DNA from: Kappaphycus alvarezii
Lineage: Eukaryota; Rhodophyta; Florideophyceae; Gigartinales; Solieriaceae
DNA length: 64,000 bases
Direction: 5' to 3'
Assembly (NCBI GenBank): GCA_002205965.3
Contig: NADL03000017.1
Coordinates: 496,001-560,000 of the forward strand
Below, piece by piece: positions 13,230 to 61,419 of this stretch. The position numbers and the translations under genes were made by a program. Numbering within the stretch: position 1 is the stretch's first letter; every line of letters begins with the position of its first letter. The notes below the pieces were generated by a model. That model was not told the origin of the DNA. It was given only the letters and a program-made list of their open reading frames with translations, and did not search any database.

Positions 13230-14318
13230 TTATTGTAATGGTGACTCATATTCAACTTCACGATGATCAAACTCTACAGCACGGAACTGAAGATCAATAC
13301 AAAGGCGACGCTTATTTCGATAGCGCTCTTGCACGCGTTTCCGTTTCTTCGAAATAGTATCTCCGATTGAATAAAGGCGATTTTTAAAGCGCCTTTGATG
13401 GCCCCCATCACCATCCCAACGGATACATTTGCACATGGAAATTTGTCAGAGCCACACAAAGATGAAATACTGCATCATAGTGGTCCTCTTTCCATCTCCA
13501 CTTGCTCCCGATGACGTTCCTTAGAAGACATAATCGGCCCAAAAAATGTTTCGCCAATAACCCCGTCAGACGCCACGTTACGATTCTCAGCTTCAGCTTC
13601 ACGAGATAGAACACGTTCTTCTGTTTCTCCTTTGGCGTAATCACACGAACGATTTCAGCAGCACCTTGGTACCCGTCATACATTAAACCTGCCCAGTGAT
13701 CTGCATGCTTACTAGAAAGTAGACCCATGTCTGTAATATTTTCTCTCCGGACCCTTCTTTCGAAGAAAGTGCTTGTGAAAAGTGAATTGCGTTGCAATAT
13801 TTCCAAGTCGGACACAGATTCAGGGTAATGCTGGGAACAATCGATTGCCAGACCATTTGCGAGGACACTAACCTCCACCTGAAACCCATACAACTTGTGT
13901 TTTCCACTGAAAAATACCTTTCCTTCCTGGACATTTCCGTACGGGCGGTTGGCTTGCTGAAATGTAGCATCCGTTACATATCGCGCGAAGGGAAAATTGC
14001 GAAATTTGTTTTCATCTTGGGCAATTTTCCCGAAGTTAAACAAAGAATAGTTTCGATTCACAAGAGCTTCGTAAAGCGGTTCATGCGGCAAGTCTGTGAA
14101 CTTCGTCATCATGCGCTCAAAAGACGGTCCCTTTAAGCTAAAGACTTTGGCAATAATCTCCCATTGACTGCCATACCTTAGGGCTTTGAAAATCATGAAC
14201 AGTATGCCCCAACCAGAGTGATGCGACTCTCGTCCAGGCCGATGTTGAAGCGCTCAAGAATGATGTCGGAGAAGCTGTTACAGATCGTTTGGAGCTCTGA
14301 GGCATCGAAATTCGTCAT
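13230..14318 (-). pseudogene. PIF/Harbinger-like DDE transposase, nearly complete but frameshifted
   Basis: The core is an uninterrupted 262-codon frame at 13408-14196. It contains an RNase H-fold DDE domain: Thr-Asp-Ala-Thr (D76), a Phe-Ser-Gly-Lys-His-Lys-Leu-Tyr-Gly block, Ser-Val-Ser-Asp-Leu-Glu (D130) and Tyr-Asp-Gly-Tyr-Gln-Gly (D174), followed by a Lys-Trp-Arg-Trp and Leu-Cys-Val-Ala-Leu-Thr-Asn tail. The frame continues upstream, in a frame one base off, to an ATG at 14318. It continues downstream, again shifted, through a basic tail to a stop at 13230. With those two shifts the length is about 360 residues, about right for the family. It would cut and paste its own element. The catalytic triad is present, so decay may be recent or the shifts may be assembly errors. 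I did not find terminal inverted repeats. Confidence 0.8.
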
Positions 14319-26815: not shown

Positions 26816-26820
26816 GTAAG
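26816..26820. repeat. target-site duplication GTAAG (left)
   Basis: The five bases directly before the left LTR are GTAAG, identical to the five bases directly after the right LTR (30678-30682). A 5-bp duplication is typical of LTR-retrotransposon integrase. Confidence 0.9.
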
Positions 26821-27320
26821 TGTGGGGTGTTGAGCGCACAAAAGGTAATCGATGGTTGAACTGCTGGTTGATGCTTCCGGTAATCAGGCCAGGCATCAGA
26901 CCAGGGTTTATATAGAAAAGTACTCAACACCAGCAGAGATAAATTGTAACTAAAAGGTACTGAATTCAAAGGTATTCTAGAAAATGCGACCCAGAGGTAT
27001 CAAACTACAAGGTTCTGAAGGTCCATCATATAACAGACAGCAACAAACATCATGGCAAAGTACCATTGGTCCAATTGGCAAGGAGGCATAAAGTGGTTGC
27101 TGATTGGTGGGTGCGAAATGTTTCGAGAACCACGCGAGATAGCCATGATGGATCCATGTCATTGGCTAGGTACAAAGGGGTATGATACTATGCTTTTACA
27201 CTGGTGCGTGAGTACAGTGCACAAGTTGCAATGATGTCTTCTTACAGTGTAAATCCTTGGTACAGGTTACCAGAGGGATACTGTCAGGGTATTTGGTGAT
27301 TTATGGGCATAATCGCAACA
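26821..27320 (-). repeat. 3' LTR (left copy)
   Basis: The repeat is 500 bp, begins TGTGGGGTGTTGAG and ends GCAACA on the plus strand, so it has TG...CA ends on either strand. It matches 30177-30677 almost throughout. A TATATAAA box on the minus strand lies at 26907-26914. Confidence 0.95.
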
Positions 27321-28121
27321 TCACTCCCCCCTACGAAGAAGAATCGCCCCGATTCTTGTATTCGTATAGCAGATCTTGAAATCATACTTTCGCTTCGGAG
27401 GAAGGCCCTTCGGAAGTTTTTCCGGGAAAACGTCTGTATACTTTTTCAGTACACCTTGAATATCTTCTGGGTAAGAATCTGGAACATTTGGATTTGAGTC
27501 TAGTGGTCGAATTAGAACAGCATAAGTGCTACATTTTTTCTCCAAATCAGTAAGTACTGAGTTTGCAGAAACGAAAGGGTGCTTTGTCATTTCATTGGCA
27601 GTGACGGAGTACTTTTCACCCTTGTAGTTGAAAGAAACTTGATTGCTTGAAGAGTCGATAATTGCTCTATGGGCTCCACACCATTCCTTTCCTAGGATTG
27701 CATCATATCTCTTGAGGGGGCTCACGGCGAAGTACAGTGGTTCTGTGTAGTTCTTTATTTGGACGATTGCCGGACCGGCTGTTTCTTTCAACTTCTGGTT
27801 AGCACCGTTCGCCATTTCGGCAAGCTCTGCTGATTCTCTTGTTTTAATCTTATGGTAATCGCAGAACAATTCACTGAGGAAATTGATCTCACCACCTGGG
27901 TCGATGAGAATTTTTGCTGGTCCATTGGAAATGACTCCTTTAACAATAAGAAGTCCTCTATGATTTCGTTGGAAAGTTGGGGTTGGTGTTCCCCTAAATG
28001 CTTCCTGGGATCTTATTGTTGAAACAATAAGATTTCTGTCATCCAGAACTGATTGAGGACCTTCAGTCAGTTCCTTCGGGCTTTTGGGCAGTTTTTTGCA
28101 ATGTGCCCTCTCTGTCTGCAT
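27321..28121 (-). CDS. retroelement protease region (pol frame, RT deleted)
   Basis: The 266-codon frame overlaps the end of gag by 55 bases and lies in its -1 frame. It has no convincing own start and should be made as a Gag-protease fusion by frameshifting at 28091-28097. A retropepsin-like aspartic protease is seen around residues 70-85 (Leu-Ile-Asp-Pro-Gly-Gly-Glu-Ile-Asn-Phe). The catalytic Asp is kept, but the usual Ser/Thr after it is Pro. A Gly-Lys-Glu-Trp-Cys block follows at about residues 140-150. The sequence then reaches the linker that normally leads into reverse transcriptase (Leu-Pro-Pro-Lys-Arg-Lys-Tyr-Asp-Phe-Lys-Ile) and stops 16 residues later. The stop codon TGA at 27321-27323 sits directly between the polypurine tract and the LTR. 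The deletion that removed the enzymes therefore kept an open frame to the LTR edge. Confidence 0.85.
   Translation of the reverse strand: MQTERAHCKKLPKSPKELTEGPQSVLDDRNLIVSTIRSQEAFRGTPTPTFQRNHRGLLIVKGVISNGPAKILIDPGGEINFLSELFCDYHKIKTRESAELAEMANGANQKLKETAGPAIVQIKNYTEPLYFAVSPLKRYDAILGKEWCGAHRAIIDSSSNQVSFNYKGEKYSVTANEMTKHPFVSANSVLTDLEKKCSTYAVLIRPLDSNPNVPDSYPEDIQGVLKKYTDVFPEKLPKGLPPKRKYDFKICYTNTRIGAILLRRGE
27324..27331 (-). other. polypurine tract GGGGGGAG
   Basis: On the minus strand GGGGGGAG precedes the 3' LTR, separated only by the pol stop codon TGA. It is the expected primer for plus-strand DNA synthesis. The same octamer abuts the 3' LTR of the Copia element at 47.5 kb. Confidence 0.8.
28046..28073 (-). 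promoter_or_regulatory. stem-loop downstream of the frameshift site
   Basis: GAACTGA and TCAGTTC (28073-28067 and 28052-28046 on the minus strand) form a perfect 7-bp stem with a 14-base loop, starting 17 bases after the slippery heptamer. The spacing is longer than the usual 5-9 bases, so a larger fold or pseudoknot may be involved. Confidence 0.45.
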
Positions 28122-29001
28122 CTCAAGCAGAGGCCTTCACGTATGCATCTCTCACGTTCTGCTTGATCCAATTTCGGTAAGTTAACATTTGAGGACTGTA
28201 TACCCGGTTTCATTTCCACGTTCCCAATTTCCATGGGCACGGGAGCACTATTTCCAGTACTTGAACTTCCGTTCAGCGATTTTGTATTCGATTTGTTGTT
28301 ACCTAACGGCCCTGAACGCCTGTAAGCAGCTTCGATTCTTTCCGCATCTGCCATTAAATCAGAAAGCTTAGAGTATTCTTTCGTGCATAAGGCTTTCCAA
28401 ATGTACGGTTTCAGGCCGCGTGAATAGCGATCAATCTGATCTTTGACTCCTATGTCTGGTATATCCAACAATATTTTGTTAAAATCTTCATTGAACGCAG
28501 TAACGTCTTTAACTTGTTTCCAGCGAGCCAGCTTGTCTCGGGCGATTTTTTCCTTGTTTAACGTCTCGAAGCGATTGAGAAGTGCAGTCTTCAGTTCCTT
28601 CCATGTTTGAATCTCCTGCCCCGCGGCGCTCTTGGAATGGACCATCCACCACTCATGGGCATTTCCAGAGAGATAGCTTAGTGCAATGTTCATGGTAGCT
28701 TGCCCATCTGCTTCACCAAGATAATTCTGCATCTGCACGCACCAGCTCCCGACGGACCCTTTTCCGCTGAATGATCCCGGCTTATTCTTCTTAGGGGCGT
28801 CCTTGGTTTCGTTTTGACCATTTGAGCTACCGGCATTGATCCTGACGAGAGAAAGCTCATTCTCGAGAGCTCCCACCTTGCGAGCAGCGTTATTGAGCTG
28901 GTTCTGTTGTGCGGAGATCTGTTATGAGCCTCTGACAGCTGGCGTTGAAGTTCGCTTACAGCTTGTGCCAGAGACTCTACAGTAATGCCCGAAGTTTCCA
29001 T
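28067..29001 (-). CDS. retroelement Gag, 1-bp frameshift near its N-terminus
   Basis: The main frame is 28067-28876 (269 codons counted from a GTG). In order it shows a coiled-coil-like start, a Gly-Ser-Phe-Ser-Gly-Lys-Gly capsid entry, a capsid-like helical region with Trp-Trp (residues about 75-77) and Phe-Asn-Glu-Asp-Phe, and a C-terminal zinc knuckle C250-x2-C253-x4-H258-x4-C263. The true start is most likely the ATG at 29001, whose frame gives a Leu/Gln-rich helix and then slips one base near 28918. A single missing base would join them. Gag packages the element RNA into particles. In-frame ATGs inside the 269-codon part are unlikely starts, because they would remove the N-terminal helices. 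Confidence 0.85.
28091..28097 (-). promoter_or_regulatory. -1 programmed frameshift heptamer A_AAA_AAC
   Basis: On the minus strand the gag codons GCA AAA AAC contain the canonical slippery heptamer A AAA AAC in the correct phase. A -1 slip here leads into the protease frame (Lys-Lys-Leu-Pro-Lys-Ser), while non-slipping ribosomes stop nine codons after the AAC (TGA at 28067-28069). The AAA-AAC codons encode the Lys-Asn of the zinc knuckle (Ile-Ala-Lys-Asn-Cys). Confidence 0.85.
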
Positions 29002-29094
29002 TGTCTTTTCCTATTGGTCGAAAGAGTCACACGTGTAGTTTTGGGTTTTTTTTCTTTAAATAGAATTTTTTCAAATTGGCCAGTAAGAATCGGT

Positions 29095-29400
29095 ATGCAC
29101 TGTGGCCGAGTTGGCTAGACCAGCGAAAGACCAGTGAGAGGTCTCGAGTTCGAATCCCAGTCGATAACTTGGGAAAGTTGATTTTCTCTGACGTAAGGGT
29201 TTGACGTCAGTCACGTCGGGTGTGCTATAGTAGCCCTCCTTCCGATGCTTTACAGAACGGTTGTTTTCCTGTCTAGAACCTGGCGGCGATACGGGCTTAC
29301 AAGCCCTACTGCAAGGAACTGGGGAAAGCGAGTTCGTAAGGTAGCCACAGCGGGAGGTTGAACACAGCACAAACGAAGTCGGTTGAGAAAGCAACTTTTG
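29095..29400 (+). repeat. tRNA-like SINE candidate inside the LTR element
   Basis: On the plus strand, antisense to the element, TGGCCGAGTTGG (29103-29114) matches the tRNA A box. GAGTTCGAATCCC about 35 bases on matches the B box. The cloverleaf stems do not pair well, so it is not a functional tRNA gene; a tRNA-derived SINE head is the better reading. About 230 bp of unique-looking tail follows, with no clear target duplication. Confidence 0.4.
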
Positions 29401-29444
29401 GAGTTTTTCTTGCTTCCTCTTCCCTAAATTTATTCAAATTTTAA

Positions 29445-30123
29445 CTACTGACGGGCAGTCTCTCGATGACGGCGGCCAAGACGGTGGCGCTCAAGGTCTG
29501 CCTTACTTGGGACTTCGATTTTGCAAATTTCGCAGATGTGCCTCGTCTTATCGGCGCGGTGCTGGTGCTTGCGGGATCGGAGGTGCTCGTGGTACTGCAC
29601 TCGGCCTGTGCAGGTGACTTGACAGTGACGGCAGTGGAAGGGCGAAGATCGCGGGTTCTTGGTCAGGCGAGGCCTTCTGGTCTTCTTACGAATGCGGTGG
29701 TTGGCGGTTCTCTGAATGACGATGGAAGCCGCGTCAGGGAGAATCGGTAGGGTCTTCTTAGGCTTCTGCGGCTTGGAGCGAGGGACTGCGGGCCTTCTCG
29801 GTATCGGCGGTAGAGCGGGTAGCGATACAGCCTCGGGAAGGCAGAAAGTGGAGGGTCTTGGTGTCCTCGGTTCCTCCACCACGATTCTGGTGGGTGTTCT
29901 TGGCTCCACTCCAAACTCGAAAGTTGTCAGCTCCTGACAATTTTCGGCGAAGAACGATTGTAAGTCTTCTGCGTTGTACTCGTCCGGCGACGAGGGGCGG
30001 TCCCTGGAAGTCTTGTTTTTCGGCACTGAGCGTTATTCAAAAAGAATCAGAGTAAAAAACAAAATGTTAGTCTCTGCTTGCAATCGGGCAGAACGTCAAA
30101 TCTAATAGAGATTTTAACTTACT
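29445..30123 (-). CDS. retroelement ORF1: two U1/matrin-type zinc fingers, start codon made by splicing
   Basis: Exon 2 (30025-29445) encodes about 192 residues without any internal Met. The N-terminal 100 residues are acidic, then Pro/Arg/Thr-rich. Residues about 105-128 are strongly basic. Two fingers follow, C132-x2-C135-x12-H148-x5-H154 and C165-x2-C168-x12-H181-x5-H187. This spacing is typical of U1-C/matrin/JAZ-type fingers, which often bind double-stranded RNA. The frame has a stop just upstream and no ATG. Joining A30123 to T30025 across the predicted intron creates ATG exactly in frame. The protein lies between the 5' LTR and gag, where other LTR elements rarely carry a gene. Its function is unknown; RNA binding or silencing suppression are guesses. 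Confidence 0.75.
30026..30122 (-). other. predicted 97-bp intron in the retroelement leader
   Basis: The donor GTAAGTT (30122-30116) is consensus. A CTAAC branch-type site (30070-30066) is followed by a T-rich tract and the acceptor CTCAG (30030-30026). Removal joins CCGACA to TGCCG and forms an ATG. The intron is still present in this reverse-transcribed copy, so unspliced RNA must have been packaged. Confidence 0.75.
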
Positions 30124-30161
30124 GTCGGATTGGAAGAACTCGCAGTACTGACAAACGAATA

Positions 30162-30174
30162 TGCGATGCTACCA
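30162..30174 (-). promoter_or_regulatory. primer binding site (tRNA-Met-like)
   Basis: Two bases after the inner end of the 5' LTR the minus strand reads TGGTAGCATCGCA, complementary to a tRNA 3' end TGCGATGCTACCA. The ...GCTACCA end resembles initiator tRNA-Met, the commonest primer of such elements. Confidence 0.65.
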
Positions 30175-30176
30175 AA

Positions 30177-30677
30177 TGTGGGGTGTTGAGCGCACAAAAG
30201 GTAATCGATGGTTGAACTGTTGGTTGATGCTTCCGGTAATCAGGCCGGACATCAGACCAGGGTTTATATAGAAAAAGTACTCAACACCAGCAGAGATAAA
30301 TTGTAACTAAACGGTACTGAATTCAAAGGTATTCTAGAAAATGCGACCCAGAGGTATCAAACTACAAGGTTCTGAAGGTCCATCAGTATAACAGACAGCA
30401 ACAAACATCATGGCAAAGTACCATTGGTCCAATTGGCAAGGAGGCATAAAGTGGTTGCTGATTGGTGGGTGCGAAATGTTTCGAGAACCACGCGAGATAG
30501 CCATGATGGATCCATGTCATTGGCTAGGTACAAAGGGTATGATATTATGCTTTTACACTGGTGCGTGAGTACAGTGCACAAGTTGCAATGATGTCTTCTT
30601 ACAGTGTAAATCCTTGGTACAGGTTACCGGAGGGATACTGTCAGGGTATTTGGTGATTTATGGGCATAATCGCAACA
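30177..30677 (-). repeat. 5' LTR (right copy)
   Basis: The repeat is 501 bp and matches the left LTR. It should contain the promoter. It is followed at 30678-30682 by the second GTAAG. Confidence 0.95.
30263..30270 (-). promoter_or_regulatory. TATA box of the LTR promoter
   Basis: TATATAAA on the minus strand lies about 407 bases into the LTR. A transcript start is therefore expected near 30240, leaving about 65 bases of R-U5. The position relative to the LTR is as expected; the exact start site is inferred. Confidence 0.65.
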
Positions 30678-30682
30678 GTAAG
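30678..30682. repeat. target-site duplication GTAAG (right)
   Basis: Identical to 26816-26820. It marks the outer edge of the LTR element and the point where the pogo transposase frame resumes. Confidence 0.9.
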
Positions 30683-60507: not shown

Positions 60508-61419
60508 CTACTGTGTTGCAGTCGACTCGCGTGGCGGCGAGAAGAAGATAATTGACGCCTCGTAAATCATCGGATTCCGAATCTCATAGAGGGTAAGATG
60601 TGGCAACCTAAGAAATCCCCTTCGCAAACCCTGATCCGGGTGTTTCCAATATCCCAATCCAAACGCCCGCTTCGTACAAAGTACATCTCATTTGCGCCAA
60701 AGGTACGCACGACGCCTGTAGTGCCGTGCGGGGCAATGCGCAACTCACCGAGGATAGAGGCGTCGACAGACAGCGCGGTTGCAACCCGGACGCCTTGGGA
60801 TGACGCACTGTCTGAGAAGTGCAATGCCGAACGGCGCGCCAGCATGAACAACGGAGTGGATTGATTTTGCAGAGAGATCGACGGGGAGTAGGAATGAGGA
60901 CTAGGATCTACGGATGGGTTGGTATCGGTGTTGGAAGAGTTGCCGGAGAGGCTGAGGTCGATTGGGATGGGTTGGAGTTCACGAATGTGGGTGGCGGTTG
61001 TGCTGCGAGGGAGTTTTCGCGGTGCGTCGGGTGGGACTGGAAGGTCGTGTGTGGTGGGAGGTTGTGTGAGAAATAAAAGGGCTGACGGGAAGGTGGGGGA
61101 GTGGTGGAGCCGGAGAGAGTGGTGAGAGAGGGGATGTGACGTTTAGGGGGGAGGAAGAGTGAATGGTGGGGTTGAGACTCGGGACGGGTTGCGGCGGCGG
61201 GGTGGAAGGACGAGGCAACTGTTGAGGTGACGGTTGGTGAAGTAGGGTTATCGGGGTTGGGGAATACGAGGCAGGCGGGTTAGATATGTGGCCTTGACCT
61301 GGGTGTGCAAGTATGTTGTCCTGGTTGGAAATGCTTTGAAACTTTGGTGGGGTGGGAGTGACTGGAGAGCAGTGTTCCGAAGTGGGGTGATTCATGTGGG
61401 GGTGCGCTTTTTCTGCCAA
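60508..61419 (-). CDS. cupin-domain protein, candidate CENP-C/Mif2 kinetochore protein
   Basis: The C-terminal frame (60970 to about 60570) ends in a cupin-like domain: Gly-Glu-Leu-Arg-Ile-Ala-Pro, Asn-Glu-Met-Tyr-Phe-Val-x-Ser-Gly-Arg-Leu, Cys-Glu-Gly-Asp-Phe and Met-Arg-Phe-Gly-Ile. After one base shift near 60567 comes Glu-Ala-Ser-Ile-Ile-Phe-Phe-Ser and a stop at 60508-60510. Order and spacing match the CENP-C C-terminal dimerisation domain (Phe-Tyr-Val-x-x-Gly-x-Leu; Gly-Asp-Ser-Phe; Tyr-x-Ile-x-Asn; Leu-Leu-Phe). Upstream is a 140-residue Pro/Ser/Thr/His-rich disordered region, shifted one base near 60985, as in many CENP-C proteins. CENP-C links centromeric nucleosomes to the kinetochore. 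Other cupins are possible, because the N-terminal CENP-C motif was not found. Confidence 0.5.

Follow-up and report, generated by a model that had tools for sequence, protein, structure and literature searches.

The leader of a multicopy Ty3/gypsy-like element very probably gives rise to two messages from a single promoter, one in which splicing creates the AUG of an accessory open reading frame (ORF1) and another, unspliced, whose leader is free of AUGs up to gag. At the DNA level, the basis of this reading is the conservation of splice sites in two lineages, six exact intronless joins, constraint on ORF1 and a scarcity of ATGs in the leader. The element was analyzed in a 64-kb stretch of DNA, hereafter referred to as the window, and in related copies from a 336-Mb genome assembly.

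The element and its ATG-free leader

The window element is an LTR retrotransposon on the minus strand, Ty3/gypsy-like by Pfam matches of its gag and protease domains and of the RT piece of a near copy. The first-pass annotation had assigned this region to an LTR retroelement, and two LTRs, a target-site duplication and PBS-like and polypurine sequences are present. The target-site duplication CTTAC was read directly at 30678–30682 on the 5′ side of the element and recurs at 26816–26820 on the 3′ side. The 5′ LTR (TGTTGCG...CCCCACA, 30177–30677, minus strand) was delimited by repeat search and alignment. It contains a TATA-like sequence TATATAAA at 30270–30263 (minus strand), from which the transcript start was assumed to lie near 30240. 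The remaining features follow on the same strand. Exon 1 (30123–30240) consists of R-U5 and leader, includes a PBS-like TGGTAGCATCGC (30163–30174, assigned by its position after the LTR) and ends with the A of the splice-made ATG. Next come a 97-nt leader intron (30026–30122), which is conserved in 40 copies and exactly absent from copies L069 and L070, and ORF1, extending from the TG of the spliced ATG through the stop codon (29445–30025) and coding for a 193-residue basic protein with two C2H2 fingers. An ATG-free spacer (29002–29444; no ATG compared to 2.8 expected by shuffling) separates ORF1 from gag (28067–29001; Retrotrans_gag, Ty3_capsid and a zinc knuckle). Gag is followed by pro (RVP_2) with the first RT residues (27321–28136), a polypurine stretch (27332–27321) and the 3′ LTR (26821–27320).

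The copy in the window is defective: a shift early in the gene interrupts the gag frame that opens with the ATG at 29001, and most of pol has been lost from the start of RT onward. It is a deletion derivative in which, at 27321–27350, the start of RT is joined to sequence just before the polypurine stretch. The junction is not shared by 19 other near copies fetched with 4.5–4.7 kb, all of which pass the deletion point without reaching a 3′ LTR. Two long near copies, when translated, continue into RT, and the pol piece of one copy (L018) matches RVT_1. The near copies referred to throughout are the best-scoring 40 of 1568 candidates; they are 97–100% identical and include the window itself as L009. 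Gag is open for at least 310 codons in 8 of the 40, so copies with open gag exist. The near-identical copies (L009–L048) differ in the open extent of gag and ORF1, mostly with small changes in leader length; assembly error and decay are not separable here as causes of these differences. Two copies, L032 and L035, are more than 99% identical to the window in leader and gag and only 79% and 88% identical in the 5′ LTR, as if LTRs had been swapped between subfamilies. At G000:C827:330124–336643 three ORF1 matches recur at intervals of about 2973 bp, a spacing that would suit a tandem arrangement of the element or a part of it. Among gag matches, the sole named organism was Pyropia vietnamensis. 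Searches of IMG/VR with ORF1 and gag profiles and of GTDB genomes with the gag profile revealed no relatives.

The absence of minus-strand ATGs between transcript start and gag, noted from the sequence at the outset, was confirmed. The ATG-free run extends for 1251 nt, from 30252 to 29001, and is unmatched in length on both strands of the window, the next longest being 550 nt; the ATG at 30252 is located about 12 nt upstream of the assumed transcript start. The leader proper (30240–29002) contains no ATG and 13 occurrences of CAT, the reverse complement. The initial estimate of 15–20 chance ATGs agrees with base composition alone (15.8) and is too high when dinucleotides are preserved (mean 8.8, sd 2.5); none of 5000 dinucleotide shuffles was without ATG. 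When noncoding parts of the window leader were considered separately, there were 0 ATGs versus 5.3 expected, with 3 of 2000 shuffles as low. Within ORF1, 0 out-of-frame ATGs compare with a synonymous-shuffle mean of 1.12 (P 0.27), and their absence with the protein held fixed is not unusual by itself.

The spacer contains, antisense to the element, a tRNA-like sequence that was read by eye (29098–29160, plus strand). Such a sequence is located between ORF1 and gag in both lineages, being also present in the spacers of the diverged copies L062, L073, L076 and L082. It differs between the window type and the diverged type, and a nearby stretch, GACGTAAGGGTT-GACGTCAGTCACGTC, is common to both. 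Its motifs are what we take to be A-box-like and B-box-like elements, and the sequence could represent a SINE captured by the element or a Pol III promoter in antisense orientation. ARAGORN at default settings detected no tRNA in the window, Rfam at gathering thresholds gave nothing in the window, and ARAGORN with a lowered threshold produced only low-scoring calls in the spacers. Elsewhere in the window, a DDE_Tnp_4 transposase remnant (13408–14253) and an open frame whose match to cupin was weak and fell short of the curated cut-off (60567–61142) were observed. In the genome, three matches to the phycobilisome family were found. The best two, located on large contigs, are genes related to allophycocyanin/phycocyanin subunits (L091, G000:C74; L092, G000:C669). 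The phycobilisome family is usually plastid-encoded, and the two genes may be nuclear copies. In view of the phycobilisome matches and the Pyropia gag match, the genome is probably that of a red alga.

Splice sites and natural intronless joins in two lineages

The intron signals proposed by the first-pass annotation are all in place: the donor ACA/GTAAGTT (30122–30116; the slash marks the intron border), a branch-like CTAAC at 30070–30066 and, as acceptor, CTCAG with its last base at 30026, directly before TG CCG. Joining A30123 to TG30025–30024 does produce an ATG in the frame of ORF1. The splice sites are maintained in other copies. The A before GT and the acceptor CAG/TG are present in 40/40 near copies, and GTAAGT in 37/40.

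The predicted A/TG join exists naturally, in two window-type intronless copies and in four diverged ones that use another donor. A genome search with the window-type join returned 2 places, with 1 and 3 mismatches (0 for the reversed-pattern control), though one of the two copies (L058/L070) was already known by then. Both copies (L069 and L070) lack exactly the 97 nt from 30122 to 30026. The unspliced window-type donor was found at 270 places, so that spliced joins make up 2/272. In L070, no ATG is aligned to the window gag ATG at 29001, the aligned sequence being ACG.

To cover more distant relatives, 34 diverged copies (L049–L068 and L073–L086) were picked for diversity among the matches listed (two partly overlapping lists, 150 each). 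In subfamily D, about 36% of nonsynonymous sites of ORF1 differ from the window, and synonymous sites are saturated (pS about 0.75). At the place homologous to the window donor, subfamily D copies contain only GTTGGG or worse. Their donor is a GTAAGT located directly 3′ of the PBS (16/19 copies, with the preceding A in 19/19), and the usual acceptor is CACAG/TG. The AG/TG sequence is present in 29 of the 33 intron-containing diverged copies, judged partly by eye, and is altered in L050, L051, L066 and L083. The subfamily D join, GCA A/TG, was predicted and then searched for before any copy of this kind had been seen. Four places with 0–2 mismatches were found (0 for the reversed-pattern control), and exactly 137 nt are missing in each of the four. 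The unspliced donor occurs at 247 places, and spliced joins thus constitute 4/251. The alternative subfamily D donor, GTTGGG, was rejected after a genome search returned 0 joins. A/TG thus stayed in place while the donor shifted from one lineage to the other. None of the four intronless copies of subfamily D has ORF1 open for more than 115 codons, and the frame is also broken in L069, which fits dead ends.

A tree was constructed from the 1000 nt after the join; it included the window together with eight further near copies out of the 40 and omitted L082, for which the script found no start. The six intronless copies occupy five places on the tree, among intron-containing ones. L069 groups with L056 (support 0.98), L070 with L050 and L052 (0.96 for the three), L087 with L090 (0.98) and L089 with L081 and L078 (0.84); L088 had no resolved placement. 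The five places imply several intron-loss events, unless recombination moved leaders between copies. That the six are deletions or recombinants rather than products of spliced RNA is very unlikely. Leaders may have been exchanged by recombination and tree support is moderate for some placements, but both ends coincide to the base with GT...AG borders, this holds for two lineages that differ in their donor, and the subfamily D join was predicted ahead of its search. It is hardly conceivable that the ATG-free run and the splice-like signals arose by chance in a decaying element. The window copy, with its deleted pol and shifted gag, would suit such an origin, but the absence of ATG-free sequences among the 5000 shuffles and the conservation of the arrangement in 40 copies and a diverged lineage argue against it, and the exact natural joins of the intronless copies contradict it.

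ORF1 and the scarcity of ATGs in related leaders

As first described, the 193-codon zinc-finger frame has no start codon of its own: the frame 29445–30032 contains no ATG. Its 193-residue product has a pI of 10.6. The two C2H2 fingers are encoded at about 29639–29565 and 29540–29463 and match Pfam zf-met and zf-C2H2_jaz. A PDB profile search produced generic zinc-finger matches only (best E 0.017). The fingers and the charge would fit an RNA- or DNA-binding regulator. Protein database searches detected 8 homologs with a sequence query and 11 with an alignment query. Two pairs of ORF1 and gag homologs come from contigs of equal listed size (P0005 and P0017, 6988; P0130 and P0011, 10064), which suggests that the genes are linked.

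Ten of the 11 ORF1 homologs start with Met, and then Pro or Ser, where the splice-made codon falls in the alignment; this is no proof of a split ATG, since a gene caller would also read the acceptor GTG as Met. An internal in-frame methionine, in the motif RPRM, is kept in 10/11 homologs and is replaced by Leu in the window. It is unlikely that ORF1 begins elsewhere, either at a non-AUG codon such as the acceptor GTG or at the RPRM ATG, which would yield a short two-finger protein and leave the intron incidental. The GTG is indeed at the acceptor and the RPRM methionine is common among homologs, but window-type copies do without it (ORF1 has 0 Met codons in 40/40 near copies), the region upstream of RPRM is also conserved among homologs, and A/TG stayed in place when the donor moved.

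The dN/dS of ORF1 between the window and copies L053 and L054 is 0.14–0.15. On these ratios, ORF1 is under protein-level constraint between subfamilies. Pairwise values inside subfamily D range from 0.32 to 0.93; either constraint is invisible at that depth or the copies concerned are decaying. In 28/40 near copies ORF1 remains open for 186 codons or more past its start, and in 12/40 it is broken. The changes that distinguish them (43 synonymous, 73 nonsynonymous and 3 stops, with 34.6, 79.8 and 4.6 expected) have a slight synonymous bias.

The absence of ATGs from the leader was also followed in other copies, with a mixed outcome: the leader is ATG-free in 36/40 near copies, but most related leaders are not wholly so. 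For comparison with shuffled sequences, the window and 13 of the 34 diverged copies with a visible TATA and gag ATG were used, a choice that favours less decayed copies; L079 was dropped, which left 12 scored. Between TATA+30 and the gag ATG, ten of these 12 leaders contain one ATG and the rest two or three, while 8.8–14.2 are expected. The ten one-ATG leaders are 1.26–1.64 kb long, and in 8/10 the single ATG is in the ORF1 frame and codes for the RPRM methionine. The coding region upstream of gag is thus cleared of AUGs to the extent of 0 in the window and mostly one in-frame ATG in less decayed relatives. The noncoding parts of the leader contain 0 ATGs in B-type copies L053, L054 and L056 (5.1–5.9 expected) and in D-type copies L062, L073, L076 and L084 (9.1–10.9 expected; 0/2000 shuffles for each). 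Within ORF1, synonymous shuffles expect just 0.7–1.9 out-of-frame ATGs (P 0.10–0.44 per copy), and zero is accordingly weak evidence for any one copy. A D-type gag, taken as a control, contains 8 Met codons and 12 out-of-frame ATGs versus 9.1 expected.

When all 34 diverged copies were considered, a gag ATG was assigned by an automatic rule in 18 of them. Their leaders contain 1 to 8 ATGs (one in seven copies, two in three, three in five, four in two and eight in one). The rule misplaced or missed starts that were set by hand in L053, L057, L074 and L086. The higher counts probably reflect decay after insertion. Near copies differ by 240 distinct leader substitutions, of which 4 make an ATG versus 10.2 expected (P 0.018); the 27 shared ones have no deficit (1 versus 1.25 expected).

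Two probable messages from one promoter

The proposed course of events is as follows. Splicing would remove the 97-nt leader intron, and the A/TG join would become the first AUG and open ORF1. With the start codon divided by the intron, AUG initiation on genomic RNA should not yield the full accessory protein. The unspliced RNA, which would serve as the genome as well, would present no AUG before gag, and scanning ribosomes would traverse ORF1 and begin at gag about 1.24 kb downstream. The gag ATG has A or G at −3 in 9/10 listed copies and G at +4 in 10/10, and the spliced A/TG start has G at −3. The single leader ATG of relatives has C at −3, a weak context, and would give some initiation within ORF1 on unspliced RNA. 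Intronless copies would derive from spliced RNA. In either lineage the PBS falls within exon 1 and is retained on splicing, which leaves spliced RNA open to being copied, as suggested by the six intronless copies. The proportions of spliced joins given above indicate that copying or propagation involves unspliced RNA far more frequently, and the excess of unspliced donors over joins (270 to 2 and 247 to 4) would fit packaging of mainly unspliced RNA, for which packaging may have a preference. ORF1 may be an early regulator acting on RNA or on transcription.

Separate components of this arrangement are already known: AUG-cleared upstream ORFs, spliced LTR-element RNAs and integrated spliced copies. 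In Cer1, an LTR retrotransposon of C. elegans, a spliced mRNA encodes the accessory protein CERV, and the unspliced RNA doubles as genome and gag-pol message; export of the latter depends on CERV, which may contain a zinc finger (PMC10309623). The element described here would likewise make an accessory protein from spliced RNA, splicing being supported by the six intronless copies. The two differ in that CERV is formed by five exons sharing frame with parts of gag and pol, whereas ORF1 precedes gag, occupies one exon and has its start codon split by the intron. By analogy, CERV would be the best model of ORF1 function.

In RTBV and badnaviruses, ORFs before the main polyprotein are reported to be free of internal AUGs, with ribosomes scanning about 900 nt, and RTBV splicing joins a leader uORF to ORF IV (PMC5902531). 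The AUG-cleared upstream ORF is common to these viruses and the element, in which scanning to the main ORF would be similar. The spliced RTBV product is a distal ORF that takes its start from the leader uORF, whereas here splicing makes the first ORF's own AUG, which is absent from unspliced RNA. For BARE1 and copia, it is reported that splicing divides LTR-element RNA into pools with different protein output, that the BARE1 intron is 104 nt and, for BARE, that amplification of DNA copies derived from spliced RNA was unsuccessful (PMC3735527). Splicing in those elements favours Gag, while here it opens another ORF and six intronless copies exist. SpIREs of human L1 are described as integrated copies of spliced retrotransposon RNA with exact joins and, according to the authors, as dead ends (PMC5860796). 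They resemble the copies with exact intron loss described here (97 nt in 2/2 and 137 nt in 4/4). L1 is a non-LTR element harmed by splicing, whereas here the splice product carries a conserved ORF.

A full-text literature search, outside which most subscription journals lie, turned up no retroelement in which an AUG created by splicing is paired with a leader cleared of AUGs. The combination of a start codon split by a leader intron, an AUG-cleared leader and an accessory ORF before gag was not met in the literature searched. Ogre/Tat Ty3-gypsy elements of plants have an extra ORF before gag and an intron, which is located in pol. The likeness, an extra ORF before gag and an intron, is one of general description, the intron of Ogre being in pol and the one described here in the leader.

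Whether the two messages are regulated is a separate matter. It is possible, if on balance doubtful, that the intron is spliced constitutively at a low level with no switch, ORF1 being made from spliced mRNA while ribosomes would reach gag on either RNA by leaky scanning, by reinitiation or through internal entry, and that the scarcity of ATGs only keeps scanning to gag efficient. The DNA shows nothing of regulation, and the C at −3 of the relatives' single leader ATG is the weak context that leaky scanning would need. On the other hand, intronless copies are few in both lineages, and ribosomes scanning spliced RNA meet the ORF1 AUG ahead of gag, which makes the output of the two RNAs unequal with or without regulation. 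Our tentative proposal, to which we give a little less than an even balance, is that these elements form a clade with an early/late switch based on the split start codon. The product of spliced RNA would be a zinc-finger regulator akin to CERV or Rev, which would favour the unspliced form and thereby open gag, and selection would have kept A/TG through the change of donor and cleared the leader, about 1.2–1.6 kb in length, of AUGs.

An arrangement with two messages from one promoter would be a compact answer to the problem of one retroelement RNA being genome, gag message and accessory message. One genome offers hundreds of donor-bearing places, a pair of lineages that differ in their donor, and spliced copies that have integrated; simple counts can therefore measure splicing, packaging preference and avoidance of AUGs.
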